Positions 20,450 through 28,149 of a DNA stretch of 64,000 nt are shown here, piece after piece. The stretch is from Motilimonas eburnea (lineage in GTDB: Bacteria; Pseudomonadota; Gammaproteobacteria; Enterobacterales; CBDFNC01), in the NCBI RefSeq assembly GCF_021295345.1, contig NZ_JAIMJB010000012.1:62001-126000 (forward strand). Direction: 5' to 3'. Under the pieces are notes generated by a model. It did not search any database. It was not told where the DNA came from and saw only the letters and a program-made list of their open reading frames with translations. Each line of letters starts with the position of its first letter. Position 1 is the stretch's first letter. Made by a program: the position numbers and the translations under genes.

Positions 20450-20737
20450 AATTATCTCTTAACCTTTATTATCTTGCCGATCTTAGGAGATCCAAGGCAG
20501 AACGCAACTTACAAAAGTGAAGATTAACTTAATTTAAGATTAGAATGGGCATCCCCAAACAAAGCAGAAAGCAATAGAGAAAATAAGAATGAACAATTAA
20601 TGGGCACATTTCGATAGGAAGATCACAGCAGACCGATTCTGTAATTGCTTCTCCCTGCTGGCTAGTTTTTAATGCGCATATAAAAAAAATAAAACTGTTA
20701 TTCTACAAGCTATTAATTAAGGAAGAAGCAATTCATT
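20450..20737. promoter_or_regulatory. Divergent upstream region of the GH18-LytTR regulator and acyl-CoA synthetase
   Basis: A 288-bp AT-rich region that must contain the promoters of both flanking genes. AAGGAAGAA 7-15 nt before the ATG at 20738 is a good ribosome site. No clear LytTR-type direct repeat or sigma70 hexamer pair could be assigned by eye. Confidence 0.4.
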
Positions 20738-23509
20738 ATGCGTTCTTTGTGGATCATGTTAGCCATCTTGTGCAACTTGTTGTGGGTGAACTTAGTTGCT
20801 GCAACTGAAAACACAGCAATTATGGCGTACTACAAGCAATGGGGAATTTACAGTCCTAACTATCACATCAAAGATGTTCCCGGTACCCAAATAACTCACC
20901 TCGTCTACCAAAGTGCCAAATTTGACTCAGAAGGCACCGTCGAGGTTGGCGATGAATATGCCGATCTCAACCTGCAATACCCTGATGCTGATGAAAACTT
21001 ACCTTTCAGTGGCAACTTTGGCCAAATGGTCAGTTTAAAAAAGATCTACCCTCATATTAAAACCATTATTTCCATTGGTGGCTGGGGCCGCTCCGAACAC
21101 TACTCAAATATTGCCGCCGACCCGCAACTGCGTGCTGATTTTGCCAAATCGGCCATTGAATTCATGAAGTATTATCAATTTGATGGCATTGAAATCGACT
21201 GGAACTTTCCCGTTATCACCCAACGAGCGAAACAGCATGGCCTTGAAGCAGATAAACAAAACTTCACCCTGTTATTGGCCGAATTAAATGAACAGCTTTA
21301 CCTCGAAGGACAAAAAGATCGTAAGAAGTACTTATTGATTAGCACCATCCCCGCCGCCGTTGGCTATGAGCATAACTGGCAGGTTAAAGAGGTTAGCCAA
21401 TACCTAGATTTGATTAGCCTATCCACCGCTTACATGCATGGATACTGGGAGGAAATCAAGCTCACGAACCATATCACTCCACTTTACCTCAACTCGGCAA
21501 CCCAACAGCATTTCAAGCAAACCAATACCGAAGCCAACTCCGTTGATATTGCGGTGCGCAATATATTGCAACAAGGTGCGCCAGCAGAGAAAATCGTGAT
21601 CAATATTGCCAGTTTTGCGACCGCATGGGATCAGGTACCGCGCCAAGATAATGGGTTATATCAAGTTGGGACAGACGTCAGTTGGGGCAGCTGGGATACC
21701 ACCAGTTCGGGCAGAACAGGGCTTTATAATCGCGGTCACTTGGTCGGCTTTTTAGACAATCCAGCTTATCAAAAGCATTGGGACAATAGCGCTAAAGCAT
21801 CCTGGTTGTTCAACCCTGACAAAAATGGCGGCCACTTTGTCAGTTATGAAAGTGAAGATTCCCTAAGTGAAAAGGTGTCTTACATGGAGCGGCTTGGTTT
21901 AGCAGGGATCGCCATTCGCCAGGTACATAACGACCTAAAAGGCCAAGACTCATTAATTCGTCAAACCTACGCCGCCATTTATCCTTGGCAAGCGATCTTG
22001 TTTCAAGCCGAGCTGTTCTATACCAATTATAAAACCCGCATTTTACTCACCATAGCCTTTACCTTATTGATGATCTTGCTACTGATACGCGTGAAATATA
22101 TTCAGTACAAAGAAGAGGAAGCCGATGTAAAAGATAGGGATCAATACCTAAAATTAAAGTCTCAATTGCAACAGCTCAATACTCCGCTGCAAGGCATCGC
22201 TGCCTTGTCGCAACGCATTAAGGATCATCAAAACCTACTGGCCGAAGAAAGCCAGATCCGTTTACACCAAATTGGTCAAACCGGCTTAGAAGTCAACCAC
22301 TTGATTCACAGCCTGCTCCATGACACCAACTTGGCTCAAAGTCCGAGAAATGCCGAACTCGGCCCGGTTAATTTTAAAGATATTTTGAATGTCAGTATCA
22401 ACATCTTGTTGCCCTATATCGACAATAAAGGGGTACACATTGACAGCTCAAAACTCGATGACAACACAACCGTCATTGCCGATCCTGTGTATTTGCAAAA
22501 GCTCTTGATAACCCTTATTTCGTGGGCAACAGATAACTGTGATAAAGGTAAACATATTTACTTTAGTGCGAGCCCACAAGCAGGAAGCACCTGTATCAGC
22601 ATGCTAACCGAAGGGGCACCGCCCGTGGTCAGCTTGGCGCAAATGCCGAATATCTCTCTTATCAAACAATGTGTAAGCTCACTTTGTGCCGATATTAAGT
22701 TTGATGCGCAAGCTCATCAACATAGCTGTCATTTACTGTTGCAACAAGCACTGCCTCCTCAATTAGCGGTGCCAAAAGTCAAGGTGTTGCCCGCCGACCC
22801 ACACCAGCAAGCGTCGAAACAAACCCAGCTGGAAACCGCTAATGAGCGCCTACAAAGCTTACAAGCCTTTTCGTCCCACGCTTGCAAGCTCAAAGACATT
22901 AATGAACTGATTAAAGAAGCTTTTGATGTGTTCATTAATGATCCGAGTCAGCCTACAGTGAAGGTGTATCAAGGTGATAACGTGATCCACACCAATGAAG
23001 AGGACAACGACGAACACCAAGACAGTATTACCATCGCGCACCCTGATTTAGGCGAGTTTAGTTTCGAGTTATACAGCAAAGAGCCATTGACCGAGGATGA
23101 TGTCTATTACTTCCACAGTTTGGTGACACAAATCCAAATGGTGCGTCGTCAGTTACACGAGATCACCAAAGAGCCACAACTGTTATCTGAGCTATATGAC
23201 ATTGCCTCACGCAAAGACAAGCTGCTCTATATCAAAGCAGAAAAAGGCTACAGTGGTATCTATTTACCCAATAAATCAGATCCTATTTATCTGACGCTAC
23301 GCCTTAAAACCATTAAGCTTTACTTTGACGATGAAGTCTTATTACAGATTCATCGCTCTTGGCTGATTAATCCGAAAAAGGTAGTTAAGGTACATCAGGT
23401 CACCAAGCTGAAATACGAAGTGGAAATTGACGATAAGCGCCTGCCTATCGCGCGCCCTTATGTCCCTGTGCTCAAGCAACACTTCCCTCATTGGTTTAGC
23501 GCTCGCTAA
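20738..23509 (+). CDS. Transmembrane regulator: dead GH18 chitinase domain outside, LytTR DNA-binding domain inside
   Basis: A 923-residue multidomain protein. Residues 1-22 are a signal peptide or first anchor. Residues about 25-415 form a GH18 chitinase-type barrel with SIGGWG and, at 149-156, DGIEIDWN in place of DGxDxDWE: the catalytic Glu is Asn156 and the second Asp is Glu152. The usual MAYD is TAYM and the terminal-strand SWE is IRQ. A membrane helix spans about 435-453. The cytoplasmic part starts with a HisKA-like helix in which LQQLNTPLQGI has Gln478 at the phosphoacceptor His position. A degenerate ATPase-like region (about 555-680), a coiled coil (about 690-710) and a GAF-like stretch follow. 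The C-terminus (827-923) is a LytTR DNA-binding domain with LLYIKAEKGYSGIYL and LQIHRSWLINP. Two chitinase genes follow on the same strand. A chitin-responsive one-component regulator is inferred. Confidence 0.85.
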   Translation: MRSLWIMLAILCNLLWVNLVAATENTAIMAYYKQWGIYSPNYHIKDVPGTQITHLVYQSAKFDSEGTVEVGDEYADLNLQYPDADENLPFSGNFGQMVSLKKIYPHIKTIISIGGWGRSEHYSNIAADPQLRADFAKSAIEFMKYYQFDGIEIDWNFPVITQRAKQHGLEADKQNFTLLLAELNEQLYLEGQKDRKKYLLISTIPAAVGYEHNWQVKEVSQYLDLISLSTAYMHGYWEEIKLTNHITPLYLNSATQQHFKQTNTEANSVDIAVRNILQQGAPAEKIVINIASFATAWDQVPRQDNGLYQVGTDVSWGSWDTTSSGRTGLYNRGHLVGFLDNPAYQKHWDNSAKASWLFNPDKNGGHFVSYESEDSLSEKVSYMERLGLAGIAIRQVHNDLKGQDSLIRQTYAAIYPWQAILFQAELFYTNYKTRILLTIAFTLLMILLLIRVKYIQYKEEEADVKDRDQYLKLKSQLQQLNTPLQGIAALSQRIKDHQNLLAEESQIRLHQIGQTGLEVNHLIHSLLHDTNLAQSPRNAELGPVNFKDILNVSINILLPYIDNKGVHIDSSKLDDNTTVIADPVYLQKLLITLISWATDNCDKGKHIYFSASPQAGSTCISMLTEGAPPVVSLAQMPNISLIKQCVSSLCADIKFDAQAHQHSCHLLLQQALPPQLAVPKVKVLPADPHQQASKQTQLETANERLQSLQAFSSHACKLKDINELIKEAFDVFINDPSQPTVKVYQGDNVIHTNEEDNDEHQDSITIAHPDLGEFSFELYSKEPLTEDDVYYFHSLVTQIQMVRRQLHEITKEPQLLSELYDIASRKDKLLYIKAEKGYSGIYLPNKSDPIYLTLRLKTIKLYFDDEVLLQIHRSWLINPKKVVKVHQVTKLKYEVEIDDKRLPIARPYVPVLKQHFPHWFSAR

Positions 23510-23516
23510 GCTAAGG

Positions 23517-23556
23517 ATGCAGCTTACACTGTGCTTAGATAGGCTGTAAGCTGCAT
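23517..23556. repeat. 12-bp perfect stem between the regulator and the first chitinase
   Basis: ATGCAGCTTACA (23517-23528) pairs with TGTAAGCTGCAT (23545-23556) around a 16-nt loop, followed by AAAAATT rather than a T-run. It could be a weak terminator, or an operator or RNA processing structure in the 176-bp gap. Confidence 0.5.
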
Positions 23557-23685: not shown

Positions 23686-25176
23686 ATGAAATTAAAACAG
23701 TTAGCGCAAGCCATTGCGTTTGCTTCTCTATTGGGTACGTCAGCTCAAGTTGCTGCGAGCGCCGCAGACTTTAAAGTGGTAGGTTACTACCCTTCTTGGC
23801 AGGGCTCTACTGCTGAAGTTCAATACGACAAACTGACCCATATCAACTACTCGTTTTTGCTACCTAATGCCGATGGCTCATTGAAGCCCATCGATGCGCC
23901 GCAAACCTTAATTGACTTAGTCAGCCGCGCCCATGCCGAAAATGTTAAAGTCGGTATCGCCATTGGCGGTTGGAATGGCGGTAATGACTCCGCATTTGAA
24001 ACCTTAGCCGCCAACCCTGCTAGCCGCGCAAACTTCATCAATAATGTGATGGCGTTTGTAGAGCAATACAACCTCGACGGCGTTGACATGGACTGGGAAT
24101 ACCCCGATCCAGGTGCAAGTGCACAGCGCTACACCTTACTGATGGATGAACTAAGTAAAGCACTGAAGCCTAAGGGTAAATTCTTAACCGCTGCCGTTGT
24201 TGCCTATGGCTACACGGGTGCTGGGGTTGAGAGCGCGGTCTTTGATGACATCGATTTCTTAAACTTAATGGCTTACGACGCGAACAACAGTGATCATTCC
24301 ACTTACCAAGTCGCTGTTGAGTCGATTAATTACTGGAGTGGCCGTGGCCTAGCCAAAGAAAAAATTGTCTTAGGTGTGCCTTTCTACGCGCGCCCAACAT
24401 GGCAAAAATACCGTGATATTGTTGCTGCGGACCCAAGCGCTGCATGTCGTGACCAATCCGGTGGTGGCTACTACAATGGTATTCCACTGATCAAAGAAAA
24501 AACCAAACTCGCCTTAGAGCAAGCAGGCGGTATCATGAACTGGGAACTCACCCAAGATGCCCCAAACCAATACTCACTGCTCAATGCGATGCATGAGGTG
24601 ATCCATAACACAGGCACAGGAGAATGTGGCACGGGCGTGATTAAACCGACGCTAGAGCCAACGCTAGAGCCGACCCTTGAGCCAAGCATTACCCCAACCA
24701 GCGAGCCAACACCCGTTCCAACCACTGAGCCAAGTGGCGAATGGAATGCGTCATCGGTTTACCTTTCAGGTGATATCGTGACCTACCAAGGCAAAACCTA
24801 TAAGGCAAAATGGTGGACACAAGGCACTGAACCCGGCAGCACCCAATGGGGGCCATGGGAAGCTTTAGATGGCGTAGTTCCAACAGTTGAGCCATCGGCG
24901 GAGCCAACACCGTTACCGACTGCAGAGCCGACTGCAGAGCCAACGCCGTTACCGACTGCTGAGCCGACCGCAGAGCCAACGCCGTTACCGACTGCAGAAC
25001 CGACCGCAGAGCCAACAATCGAACCGAGTCAAGCGCCTCAAGATGCTTGGTTAGCCACCAGTATTTATTTATCGGGTGATAAAGTAAGCCACAATGGCAA
25101 GCTTTATGAAGCCAAATGGTGGACCCAAGGCGAAGAGCCTGGTGTGGCACAGTGGGGACCTTGGAAACAGCTTTAA
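23686..25176 (+). CDS. Secreted GH18 chitinase with two C-terminal chitin-binding modules (CBM5/12)
   Basis: A 496-residue secreted endo- or exo-chitinase that hydrolyses beta-1,4-linked N-acetylglucosamine polymers. Residues 1-27 are a signal peptide. The GH18 barrel shows IGGWNGG and the intact catalytic motif DGVDMDWEYP with Glu138; LMAYD and the substrate-stacking Trp in MNWELTQ are also present. Residues about 315-350 and 395-450 are TEPT/PLPTAEP linkers built from short DNA repeats. The two binding modules (about 353-393 and 455-496) are near-copies sharing YLSGD and the AKWWTQG...WGPW aromatic strip. AAGGAAGG precedes the ATG. It lies 176 bp downstream of the GH18-LytTR regulator gene. 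Confidence 0.93.
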   Translation: MKLKQLAQAIAFASLLGTSAQVAASAADFKVVGYYPSWQGSTAEVQYDKLTHINYSFLLPNADGSLKPIDAPQTLIDLVSRAHAENVKVGIAIGGWNGGNDSAFETLAANPASRANFINNVMAFVEQYNLDGVDMDWEYPDPGASAQRYTLLMDELSKALKPKGKFLTAAVVAYGYTGAGVESAVFDDIDFLNLMAYDANNSDHSTYQVAVESINYWSGRGLAKEKIVLGVPFYARPTWQKYRDIVAADPSAACRDQSGGGYYNGIPLIKEKTKLALEQAGGIMNWELTQDAPNQYSLLNAMHEVIHNTGTGECGTGVIKPTLEPTLEPTLEPSITPTSEPTPVPTTEPSGEWNASSVYLSGDIVTYQGKTYKAKWWTQGTEPGSTQWGPWEALDGVVPTVEPSAEPTPLPTAEPTAEPTPLPTAEPTAEPTPLPTAEPTAEPTIEPSQAPQDAWLATSIYLSGDKVSHNGKLYEAKWWTQGEEPGVAQWGPWKQL

Positions 25177-25201
25177 GGTAAAAGCCTTAACCTAGAGATA
25201 A

Positions 25202-25229
25202 AACGGAAGCCTTGCTTCCGTTTTTTTGT
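25202..25229 (+). terminator. Intrinsic terminator of chitinase 1
   Basis: AACGGAAGC / GCTTCCGTT with loop CTT, then a run of T, 26 bp after the stop codon. Confidence 0.85.
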
Positions 25230-25380: not shown

Positions 25381-26009
25381 ATCATGGTTGTTGCTAAGCT
25401 AATTCTATACAGTATCATCACCTCGATACGTTAACCCTAGGTGCAAAATTCAGGCGGACTTAATCGAACCCTAGCGCTCAGAAGGTTGCGGCACCAAAGC
25501 GCGCTAACAGAGAAAAAGACCATTAGTTCCTCATGGAAACTTACATTATTCTCATCATCTTCTCAGTTAAACCGATCGATTCATCGCGCATTTCGTGAAA
25601 TAAAGCGAACAAATAACAACCTAAAACCATACCGTAAAATTATCTAAACCATTGTTTATTATGAACTTGAAATTTCATCCTGTGTTTTTTCATGATCATT
25701 TCGTGAGTCAAACGGGTCTGCGATCAAGATTGTCATAATGCAACAAATTGCATTTCAAAACAGATCGAGTGGCCATCACGTAAAAAAGCAGACCCTGCTC
25801 ACAAAATCCCATAGACGTAGATCCATGCATGATGAAAAACACCCGACAACTAAAGTTAAGGCACTGTTTTTAAATGATATAAGTTGAAGTTTCATGAAAA
25901 GCCATGAACCTCCCCCTATTTTTTACTGGCTAACTCTGACAACATGTTTCTACCACGACAACGGACCACGAGAACCCACTTGGTACTCGGATTAGAAGGG
26001 AAGGGAATA

Positions 26010-27383
26010 ATGAACAAATTTAAACTTTCGTTATTAACCAGCTTACTGGTTGCTGCAACCGCTGCTCCAGCTTTAGCAGAAAGTTCAGAAAACCATCGTT
26101 ATGTACAAGCTCCAAAAGCGAAGCCTTATAAAGTAACGCCGAACACGTCAGGCAAAGTGGTTGCAAGTTATTTCCCCGATTGGCGCCTCCAAGGTGACGT
26201 TTACACCGTTCGCAATATTCCGGTTAAGAATTTAACTCACGTTATCTATGCTTTCCTTTCTATGTGTGCACCTCATAACTATGTCAACGACGGCCTCAAA
26301 AAAATGCTTGAGGAAAACTGTAAAGGTAAAGAACCTTTCACCGCGACCATAGTTGATACCGAAGCTGCACTTGATGTTCGCTTTGATAAGAAACCGGAAA
26401 AACAAGAATACTATGGCCACTTCGGTGAGCTTAAAAAGATCCACCAGCAAAACCCAGATCTCGTCATTTTGCCTTCATTCGGTGGTTGGACCATGTCGGA
26501 GCCTTTCCGCGCCATGGCAAAATCAGAAGAAGGCCGTAAAACCTTTGTTAAGACAGCGGTTGAGCTAATTGCTAAGTACGACTTCTTTGGTGGTATCGAT
26601 ATCGACTGGGAATACCCTGGCGGTGAAGATAACTCACACGTCAGCTGGCGTGGTAATTCTCTGACCGAAGAAGAAAAAGCCCACGAACGTGAAGTATTTA
26701 CCCTGCTCATGAAAGAGCTACGCGCTGAACTGGATAAGTTAAGCGAAAAAACCGGCCGTAAATACGAGCTTTCTGCCGCAGTGAACGGCACCCCAAGTAA
26801 AGTTGCTAACATCGACTTTGCCGAAGCACAAAAATACATGGACCACGTTTACGCCATGACTTATGACTTCTTTGGCGGTTGGGGTCCACAGGTAGGCCAC
26901 TTAACTAACCTACACTCAACGAAAGACACCTTATGGGGAATGGGCGTCGATACCATGCTTAAAACCCTAGAAAATGCGGGCGTTCCTAAGAACAAGCTCG
27001 TCGTAGGTGCAGCCTTCTACGGCCGTGGTTGGGAAGGTGCTAAGTGGGAAGACCAAGCTAAGTTCCCAGAAAGCGGCACAGAGGGTAAAGCGCACGCCAG
27101 TGATACAGGCGAAGCGGGATACTTTTCTTACAAAGAAATCATGAATAAATTTGTTGACCAAAACGGTTACCAATACGGTTATGACGAAGAAGCGGAAGCG
27201 GCTTACGTTTATAACAAGAATACCGGCGCATTTATCAGCTTTGATGACCCTCGTTCAATCGAAGCCAAAGGTAAATTCGTTGTTGACCAAGGCTACGGCG
27301 GCATCTTCTCTTGGGAAATTACGCAAGATGACGGTACCCTCCTACGCGCCATGAACAAAGGCCTTGGCCATAAAACCAAATAG
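26010..27383 (+). CDS. Secreted GH18 chitinase, single catalytic domain
   Basis: A 457-residue chitinase. The start at ATG 26010 is chosen because AGAAGGGAAGGGA lies just upstream and the protein then begins with a signal peptide (MNKFKLSLLTSLLVAATAAPALA). The GH18 domain fills the rest: LPSFGGWTMSEPF, catalytic GGIDIDWEYPGG with Glu201, YAMTYDFFGGWG, and the final GGIFSWEITQDDG with the conserved Trp. No carbohydrate-binding module is present, so it may work on soluble or partly degraded chitin, complementing chitinase 1. The sequence is not close to chitinase 1 outside the motifs, so these are different GH18 subgroups rather than a recent duplication. Confidence 0.93.
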   Translation: MNKFKLSLLTSLLVAATAAPALAESSENHRYVQAPKAKPYKVTPNTSGKVVASYFPDWRLQGDVYTVRNIPVKNLTHVIYAFLSMCAPHNYVNDGLKKMLEENCKGKEPFTATIVDTEAALDVRFDKKPEKQEYYGHFGELKKIHQQNPDLVILPSFGGWTMSEPFRAMAKSEEGRKTFVKTAVELIAKYDFFGGIDIDWEYPGGEDNSHVSWRGNSLTEEEKAHEREVFTLLMKELRAELDKLSEKTGRKYELSAAVNGTPSKVANIDFAEAQKYMDHVYAMTYDFFGGWGPQVGHLTNLHSTKDTLWGMGVDTMLKTLENAGVPKNKLVVGAAFYGRGWEGAKWEDQAKFPESGTEGKAHASDTGEAGYFSYKEIMNKFVDQNGYQYGYDEEAEAAYVYNKNTGAFISFDDPRSIEAKGKFVVDQGYGGIFSWEITQDDGTLLRAMNKGLGHKTK

Positions 27384-27484: not shown

Positions 27485-27735
27485 ATCCATCCAAGCATGC
27501 TTATTTTACTCACCCATATCGCAATCTGACTCTTGCGCAGCAAGCTAAGATTAATTTAAACACATGTCTTATACTGCACACAGCAACGACCGTTCCACCG
27601 AAGAAAATCATTCCTGAAATCACAAAACACAATAAATCATCAAGCTTTATGGGGCCCACTCAGCCCAACAGTGGCAAAATAACCCTGTAAAACCCAATGT
27701 ATTTTCAACCAGACCATAGAACAATGGGAGTCCAT

Positions 27736-28149
27736 ATGGGCAGGCTGCTACTTCTCACCTTACTGTTTACCGGCAATGTCTTTGCTGCCAATATCACAGT
27801 CACAATCAATAACATTGCCAATAGCCAAGGAGATATACGACTGGCTCTGTTTGATAAGGGAGAAAAATTCCCCGCTGCGCCGGCGATGCAAAGCCTCATC
27901 GTGACCGAGTTTACCCCACCCAATGCCAGCGCCACCTTCAGCGATATCCCGATGGGCACTTACGCCATCGCCATCATGCACGATCAAGATCAAGACGAAA
28001 AGTTAGGCACTAATTTTCTCGGTATACCCACAGAGGGATACGGGTTCAGCAATGACGCCGAAGCCAACTTTGGTCCGCCGCCTTTTGCAGAAGCCGCGTT
28101 CGAGGTAGATGAGCCAGCATCCCATATCACTATCAACTTAGTTTATTAA
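27736..28149 (+). CDS. DUF2141 family exported protein
   Basis: A 137-residue protein. ATG 27736 has GGGAG five bases upstream and gives a clean signal peptide (MGRLLLLTLLFTGNVFA); the upstream in-frame ATG codons are less suitable. The body shows DUF2141 features: VTINNIANSQGDIRLALFD, GTYAIAIMHDQDQDEKL and EGYGFSNDA. The fold is a small beta-sandwich of unknown function, found in many periplasmic proteins. It converges on dsbA and shares a terminator with it. Confidence 0.8.
   Translation: MGRLLLLTLLFTGNVFAANITVTINNIANSQGDIRLALFDKGEKFPAAPAMQSLIVTEFTPPNASATFSDIPMGTYAIAIMHDQDQDEKLGTNFLGIPTEGYGFSNDAEANFGPPPFAEAAFEVDEPASHITINLVY

Follow-up and report, generated by a model that had tools for sequence, protein, structure and literature searches.

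A predicted membrane-anchored LytTR regulator of Motilimonas with a catalytically degenerate GH18 domain as candidate chitin sensor

What might a cell gain from joining a chitinase-type domain outside its membrane to a DNA-binding domain inside it? This question is raised by a gene of the marine bacterium Motilimonas eburnea, found at positions 20738 to 23509 of a 64,000-nucleotide stretch that was analysed as a whole and is hereafter called the window (contig NZ_JAIMJB010000012.1, positions 62,001 to 126,000); all features of the window named below lie on its forward strand. Open reading frame analysis, Pfam, a structural model and comparison with orthologues describe the product as a signal peptide, a catalytically dead glycoside hydrolase family 18 (GH18) domain, one transmembrane helix, a pseudo-histidine-kinase core, an alpha/beta segment and a LytTR domain. 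A first-pass annotation, made from the letters alone, had offered a chitin-responsive one-component regulator as its best guess; our analysis supports this idea, and comparative genomics strengthens it. We consider it probable that the protein is a membrane-anchored one-component transcription regulator, in which a dead GH18 domain serves as sensor of chitin fragments and which acts on adjacent chitin genes without phosphotransfer. The basis for this proposal consists of the domain architecture, the loss of catalytic residues, the conservation across a whole family and the gene neighbourhood.

The gene is a single open frame with an ATG start and 923 amino acids, and both the frame check and the orthologues confirmed that it runs without interruption, as first annotated. 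Full-length orthologues occur in three other Motilimonas assemblies (identity 80, 79, and 56%), and in comparisons with two of them the ratio of nonsynonymous to synonymous differences (pN/pS) was 0.10-0.23 in each domain, with synonymous sites close to saturation. Because of these orthologues and ratios, a frameshift or assembly join at the locus was discarded, as was a pseudogene; judged from the same ratios, every part of the regulator is under purifying selection. The GH18 and LytTR domains expected at the two ends were both recovered above the Pfam cut-off in a search with the full protein: Glyco_hydro_18 spans residues 28-399 (20819..21934, E 3.7e-66, curated cut-off) and LytTR residues 827-916 (23216..23485, E 4.2e-11, 43.4 bits against a cut-off of 22.6). 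LytTR was matched in 11 of 11 members of a family alignment (A7), and the family profile of this part also matched 3d6w, named Methyl-accepting/DNA response regulator (E 1.2e-07). Hydropathy gave two segments only, residues 2-24 for the signal peptide (residues ∼1-23, 20738..20806) and residues 431-457 for the single transmembrane helix (residues ∼433-453, 22034..22096). An AlphaFold2 model built from an alignment of 19 family members (mean predicted local distance difference test, pLDDT, 78.4; predicted template modelling score 0.51) contained a helix at 2-20, a GH18 barrel at ∼27-400, a long helix at 432-495, an alpha/beta region and, at 831-904, a part resembling LytTR; the small alpha/beta segment at residues 721-811 (22898..23170) looks GAF-like by eye. 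When the model was searched with Foldseek, the best match was 1itx (E 1.3e-31), and the best 50 of 1298 matches were all chitinases or chitinase-like proteins. Pfam, hydropathy and the model thus place a transmembrane helix and a DNA-binding domain in one predicted polypeptide.

The architecture belongs to a family rather than to a single gene, with 19 intact copies in three genera. Of six LytTR matches in the source genome (G000), three share their frame with GH18; these are the window gene, one gene on contig C5 and one on contig C10. Three GH18-LytTR copies are present in each of four Motilimonas genomes, 12 in total, and they fall into five ortholog groups. A C-terminal profile (A2, threshold E 1e-15) was positive in 8 of the 394 genomes of an order sample, comprising the four Motilimonas, three of a second genus (g12) and one of a third (g105); within these two genera the regulator occurs in 3 of 24 genomes, intact in two, and in five of five, one copy each. 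The 19 intact copies are the 21 profile matches less a split copy in G236 (L062) and less L065, a LytTR fragment from the end of a contig in G175. Only the source genome was matched among the 369 genomes of a class sample (E 1e-12). Among the 398 genomes of a phylum sample three matched, the source genome alone at a comparable score; the other two matches, one at 2.8e-12 and the other at 4.1e-12 (frame lengths 273 and 283 amino acids), were taken as ordinary response regulators. Family members scored 2.9e-46 or better and the next matches ∼3e-12, which sets the subfamily apart; it is also rare in these samples, as far as large profile searches with no more than 11 scored candidates per genome can show. 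Among the matches listed for LytTR frames of more than 500 amino acids, where the GH18-LytTR genes of the source genome do not appear, we viewed six of at least seven by eye; five were histidine kinase/response regulator frame overlaps and one was a multi-helix LytTR protein. Of 72 matching plasmid records, none covered more than 80% of the query. Two side observations belong here. The g12 copy in G236 is split into two frames (L062, 5432-6670 and 6932-8212), being either truly broken or an assembly error; and an unrelated genome encodes what appears by eye to be another membrane LytTR design, combining several helices with a domain on the outside and LytTR at the end (L075, 627-2141).

The first-pass annotation had described the outer part as a GH18 chitinase domain. 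The sequence and fold are indeed those of GH18, as Pfam and Foldseek agree, but an active chitinase is not what the residues describe, since Asn156 and Ala231 replace the catalytic Glu and Tyr. The DxxDxDxE motif reads DGIEIDWN in the window protein (21182..21205), with Asn156 for Glu, and STAY (21422..21433) stands in place of the MTYD/N of chitinases, with Ala231 at the position of the catalytic Tyr and a Tyr one place later. Across the 19 intact regulators the position of ChiB Glu144 holds Arg in seven, Gln in five, Asn in three, Pro in two, and Ile and Thr in one each, never Glu; the position of ChiB Tyr214 never holds Tyr. Numbering and roles of both residues follow excerpts of PMC8802321. 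Four of the 19 retain the Trp close to the barrel's end, and the window protein has Arg for the Trp of 'FWEL'. Conversely, a GH18 profile run on 23 fetched loci identified 19 proteins with GH18 but no LytTR, and every one has the Glu; in this set, orthologues are counted apart and chitinase loci of the source genome remote from any regulator are included. A full-length search of the class sample, with two candidates scored per genome, reached eight genomes including the source, and among nine other loci the five frames examined all keep Glu. Because both catalytic residues and the 'FWEL' Trp are lost, it is very unlikely that the window domain works as a chitinase. One might instead see the protein as a chitinase tethered to the membrane, equipped with a DNA-binding domain and relying on an alternative catalytic residue, and the well-conserved GH18 fold would favour this; however, six different residues replace Glu across the 19 copies and the catalytic Tyr is absent from all of them, and we regard this explanation as very improbable. 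An active chitinase was rejected on these residues. Trp35 and Tyr38 (20840..20851) align with the WxxY of 1itx and 6bt9 and are kept in 18 and 16 of the 19 regulators, respectively. In the enzyme, these two residues guide the chitin chain, and their retention is consistent with a retained glycan contact. A tree was built from the domains of 17 regulators and 11 enzymes, each drawn from a set of 19 (28 GH18 domains in total, with a long-branch warning from the tool); in it, the regulators fell on one side of a single branch with support 100/99, so that the regulator domains likely have one origin.

Between membrane and LytTR, the first-pass annotation had placed a kinase-like region and a coiled coil. 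The remainder of its domain order (signal peptide, GH18, transmembrane helix, LytTR) stands by Pfam, hydropathy and the model, but these two parts model together as one histidine-kinase fold without the phospho-His. A separate model of the cytoplasmic part, less confident at a mean pLDDT of 67.7, resembled histidine kinase cores in Foldseek, for example HK853 (E 3.7e-09) and the catalytic ATP-binding domain of VanS (TM-score 0.86 by target length), which suggests a two-helix dimerization and histidine phosphotransfer (DHp)-like part and an ATPase-like part at residues 455-670 (22100..22747); the Pfam match to HisKA was under cut-off (E 0.011). Eleven of the 19 copies carry this core: four from Motilimonas, two from g12 and five from g105. 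All 11 have Gln at the phospho-His position (Gln478 in the window protein), which was set by eye on the TPL of the H-box. HATPase_c was matched in one of the 11, weakly (E 0.19), and ATP-binding boxes were not recognised by eye. The other eight copies have no segment aligning to the core, their stretch from membrane helix to LytTR measuring ∼90 to 210 residues; Pfam scans of four of these copies gave no HisKA or HATPase match. Since the kinase-like region is absent from 8 of 19 members, it is not the core of the mechanism; and since Gln is invariant in the other 11, phosphotransfer inside the regulator appears unlikely as the shared relay. A hybrid or two-component sensor kinase signalling by phosphotransfer would account for the kinase fold in the model and, in the two g12 copies, for a His one place after the replacing Gln, but it is opposed by the Gln in 11 of 11 copies, by the eight paralogues without a core and by the lack of a receiver domain in Pfam among the scanned proteins, and we give it next to no credence. 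A phosphorelay was accordingly rejected on Gln478 and the core-less paralogues.

The gene neighbourhood points to the probable targets. Taking as neighbour the next frame of at least 150 amino acids, 10 of the 12 Motilimonas copies are immediately followed, in the same orientation, by a gene for a chitinase or a polysaccharide deacetylase. For the window group this neighbour is a GH18 chitinase in all four genomes (Pfam with CBM5/12 on two). The two active-looking chitinases that the first-pass annotation had seen downstream are supported by intact LDGVDMDWE and FFGGIDIDWE motifs: chitinase 1 (23686..25176), a GH18 enzyme by Pfam with intact Glu and two CBM5/12 stretches, is the probable target, and chitinase 2 (25944..27383), by Pfam likewise a GH18 enzyme with intact Glu, a possible one. 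The C10 neighbour is, in each of the four genomes, a polysaccharide deacetylase carrying a ChitinaseA N-terminal domain, assigned by Pfam on three and by common start and length on the fourth, with a CBM5/12 match under the cut-off. A chitinase with CBM5/12 follows both the C5 copy and the third copy of G002. All five g105 regulators precede a frame for a TonB receptor and one for a tryptophan halogenase, in the same orientation (Pfam support: both frames of L077 and the receptor of L079). A GH18 gene comes after these in three of five (L076-L078); L079 has a second halogenase-like frame instead, within the stretch, and the stretch of L064 ends too early. Two neighbouring genes deserve a remark of their own: a divergent polysaccharide deacetylase gene beside the third G002 regulator (L043, 9425-10906, Pfam E 7.4e-34), and a gene for a secreted 325-residue protein after the shortest regulators (L037, 4219-5196; L040, 7066-8043), possibly a new chitin-related protein.

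From these data, the following mechanism may be proposed. The periplasmic GH18 domain, devoid of chemistry, would act as receptor for chito-oligosaccharides; binding of the ligand would alter the domain, and the change would cross the membrane via the one helix. In the cytoplasm, a dimeric helical relay, made of the non-phosphorylating histidine-kinase core in the window subtype and of a different linker in the others, would pass it on to paired LytTR domains beside the membrane and alter their DNA binding at the promoter of the adjacent chitin gene, presumably for activation rather than repression. In most copies the −1 subsite is taken apart, its Trp surviving in 4 of 19, so the domain may hold sugar weakly or not at all, or its ligand may be a protein. 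The GH18-derived domain might then bind no sugar and instead dock another periplasmic protein, such as a chitin-binding protein (CBP), a chitinase or an inhibitor, while the output is still control of chitin genes. ChiS offers a precedent, in that CBP represses it when chitin is absent and activates it when bound to chitin, according to excerpts of PMC10208484. A candidate partner of the C10 regulator is also available: a periplasmic-binding-type protein (Peripla_BP_4) is encoded after the deacetylase (L002, 636-1748), with like-sized frames in the other three genomes. However, Trp35 and Tyr38 are kept in nearly all copies, the pattern expected of glycan binding, and no recurrent partner gene was found across groups in the frames listed. 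We therefore hold docking to be unlikely, yet give it real weight beside the proposed reception of chitin fragments.

Several further observations weigh against a chitin-fragment sensor acting on adjacent genes, beside the broken subsite and the displaced His of the g12 copies. A Tyr stands one place beyond the catalytic Tyr position in six of the 19 regulators. The regulator is less constrained than the two chitinases, because in the comparison with G001 its GH18 part has a pN/pS of 0.13 (kinase-like part 0.22, next segment 0.17, LytTR 0.105) against 0.07 for chitinase 1 (first 295 residues) and 0.09 for chitinase 2. The neighbour of the fifth ortholog group, in two genomes, is the secreted 325-residue protein, which has no Pfam family. 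The three g12 loci viewed have no chitin gene next to the regulator, and two g12 non-carriers, G196 and G216, have five and seven GH18 matches yet no regulator. In addition, the window locus offers no operator that convinces: no repeat word occurs between regulator and chitinase 1, and the one word upstream of chitinase 2, at −353, carries a single mismatch.

The word in question comes from the C10 group, where, in all four genomes, the gap between regulator and deacetylase contains four TTGGTG-like direct repeats spaced 75-77, 93-95, and 75-76 bases apart, with two of the four deviating in G000 (TTTGATG and TGTGGTG). TTGGTG exceeded shuffled sequences in all four gaps (p 0.014, <0.0005, <0.0005, and 0.001), but the array was picked after looking, a further point on the unfavourable side, and against any 6-mer one of four sequences fell below 0.05. 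The C5 gap holds one TTTGGTGAAA. Before 10 chitin genes of the source genome, single-mismatch words stood in front of three: the C10 deacetylase has three of them, the C5 chitinase an exact one, and window chitinase 2 the one already mentioned. An operator matrix was built from eleven C10-group sites and the C5 site, so that the latter was found partly by construction; total matches were near the shuffled expectation in most sequences. A common operator for all groups was rejected: the window gap gave nothing, G001 and G003 ∼6, the fifth group up to 11.9 and g105 11.6, against 11.3 to 16.5 for the C10 sites.

It could consequently be argued that the regulator controls genes other than its neighbours and that adjacency reflects a history of duplication next to chitin loci, for which the g12 copies without chitin neighbours and the lack of a convincing operator at the window locus would speak. 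Against this, non-orthologous paralogues stand beside different chitin genes (varied chitinases, a deacetylase, a TonB/GH18 locus), on the same strand and with the regulator first. The g12 carriers are moreover rich in GH18, with 10, 4, and 8 matches, own copy included, whereas among 21 non-carriers 14 have one match, 4 have none and G294, G196, and G216 have 3, 5, and 7, counts without correction for relatedness. We consider control of other genes quite improbable, and adjacent chitin genes remain our preferred targets.

Some smaller features accompany the locus. Upstream of the regulator lies a conserved, putatively functional element TTTCGATAGGAAGATCACAGC (TTTCGATA-GAAGATCACAGC, 20609..20629), which recurs by eye, with one or two changes, in front of the orthologue in all four Motilimonas genomes; its TCACA resembles half a CRP site. 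An inverted repeat with perfect 10-base arms directly follows the regulator stop codon (23519..23554). A hairpin scan placed a terminator-like hairpin after chitinase 1 (25200..25224), in a region with 12 such hairpins against 9.1 (sd 3.1) in shuffles. After chitinase 2, on the same strand, lies a gene for a DUF2141 protein (27697-28149, Pfam E 2.7e-32).

Taken further, we see about even chances that a digestive enzyme became the receptor of its own gene switch and was then multiplied, that each Motilimonas genome holds several dead-chitinase regulators, each with its own chitin-derived ligand and each driving its own chitin gene directly from the membrane, and that in one subtype the dead kinase core is a mere mechanical relay, two disabled former enzymes thus making one receptor. 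If true, this would show directly how an enzyme fold can be recruited to sense its former substrate, in one chain with a DNA-binding domain; it would also provide a one-component chitin sensor usable as a biosensor part. The paralogues lie beside different chitin genes and therefore offer a test of how bacteria distinguish chitin forms. There is a consequence for gene counts as well. Excerpts of PMC13182010 list 10 to 16 GH18 genes per Motilimonas genome among chitin-degradation genes; in its main text LytTR does not occur, and in these excerpts GH18-LytTR regulators are not separated from other GH18 genes. Because 3 of 14 GH18 frames in the source genome are regulators, such counts overstate chitinases.

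Parts of this design have been met before. In Andreprevotia ripae, LytTR is among the domains drawn on chitin-active proteins in a figure legend of PMC8802321, so the GH18-LytTR pairing has been seen; 4 of its 25 secreted GH18 proteins are without Glu144, and the excerpts of that article offer no function for the pairing. For one-component LytTR membrane regulators, LytTR proteins with transmembrane regions are mentioned for Caulobacter in excerpts of PMC10269533, whose main text has no word beginning with glycos- or hydrolase, so that no such sensor is described there. In the openly licensed papers that we searched, a GH18 sensor fused to LytTR is not described as a mechanism.

The nearest known regulators are of two kinds. 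First, ChiS and TfoS of Vibrio cholerae are likewise membrane-anchored, DNA-binding regulators of a chitin programme (excerpts of PMC10208484 and PMC11856585). ChiS is a sensor kinase by descent, whose periplasmic domain signals through the membrane to DNA binding (PMC10208484), but it needs a separate CBP, whereas the window protein has a periplasmic GH18 domain, LytTR and no kinase His; the two are set apart here by description. Second, RsgI6 of Clostridium thermocellum has an outside GH10 domain of very low activity that keeps polysaccharide binding, senses across the membrane and controls hydrolase genes (excerpts of PMC4711584). RsgI acts on a sigma factor and by proteolysis (excerpts of PMC12203970), whereas in the window protein, from a Gram-negative bacterium, the sensor is GH18 and appears fused to the DNA-binding domain; the RsgI N-terminal anti-sigma domain gave no Pfam match in it up to E 1. 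The closest mechanism is that of RsgI6, with its nearly inactive GH10 sensor, and the closest system that of ChiS and TfoS. Compared with known regulators, the sensor and the fusion are different, and the general kind is not.

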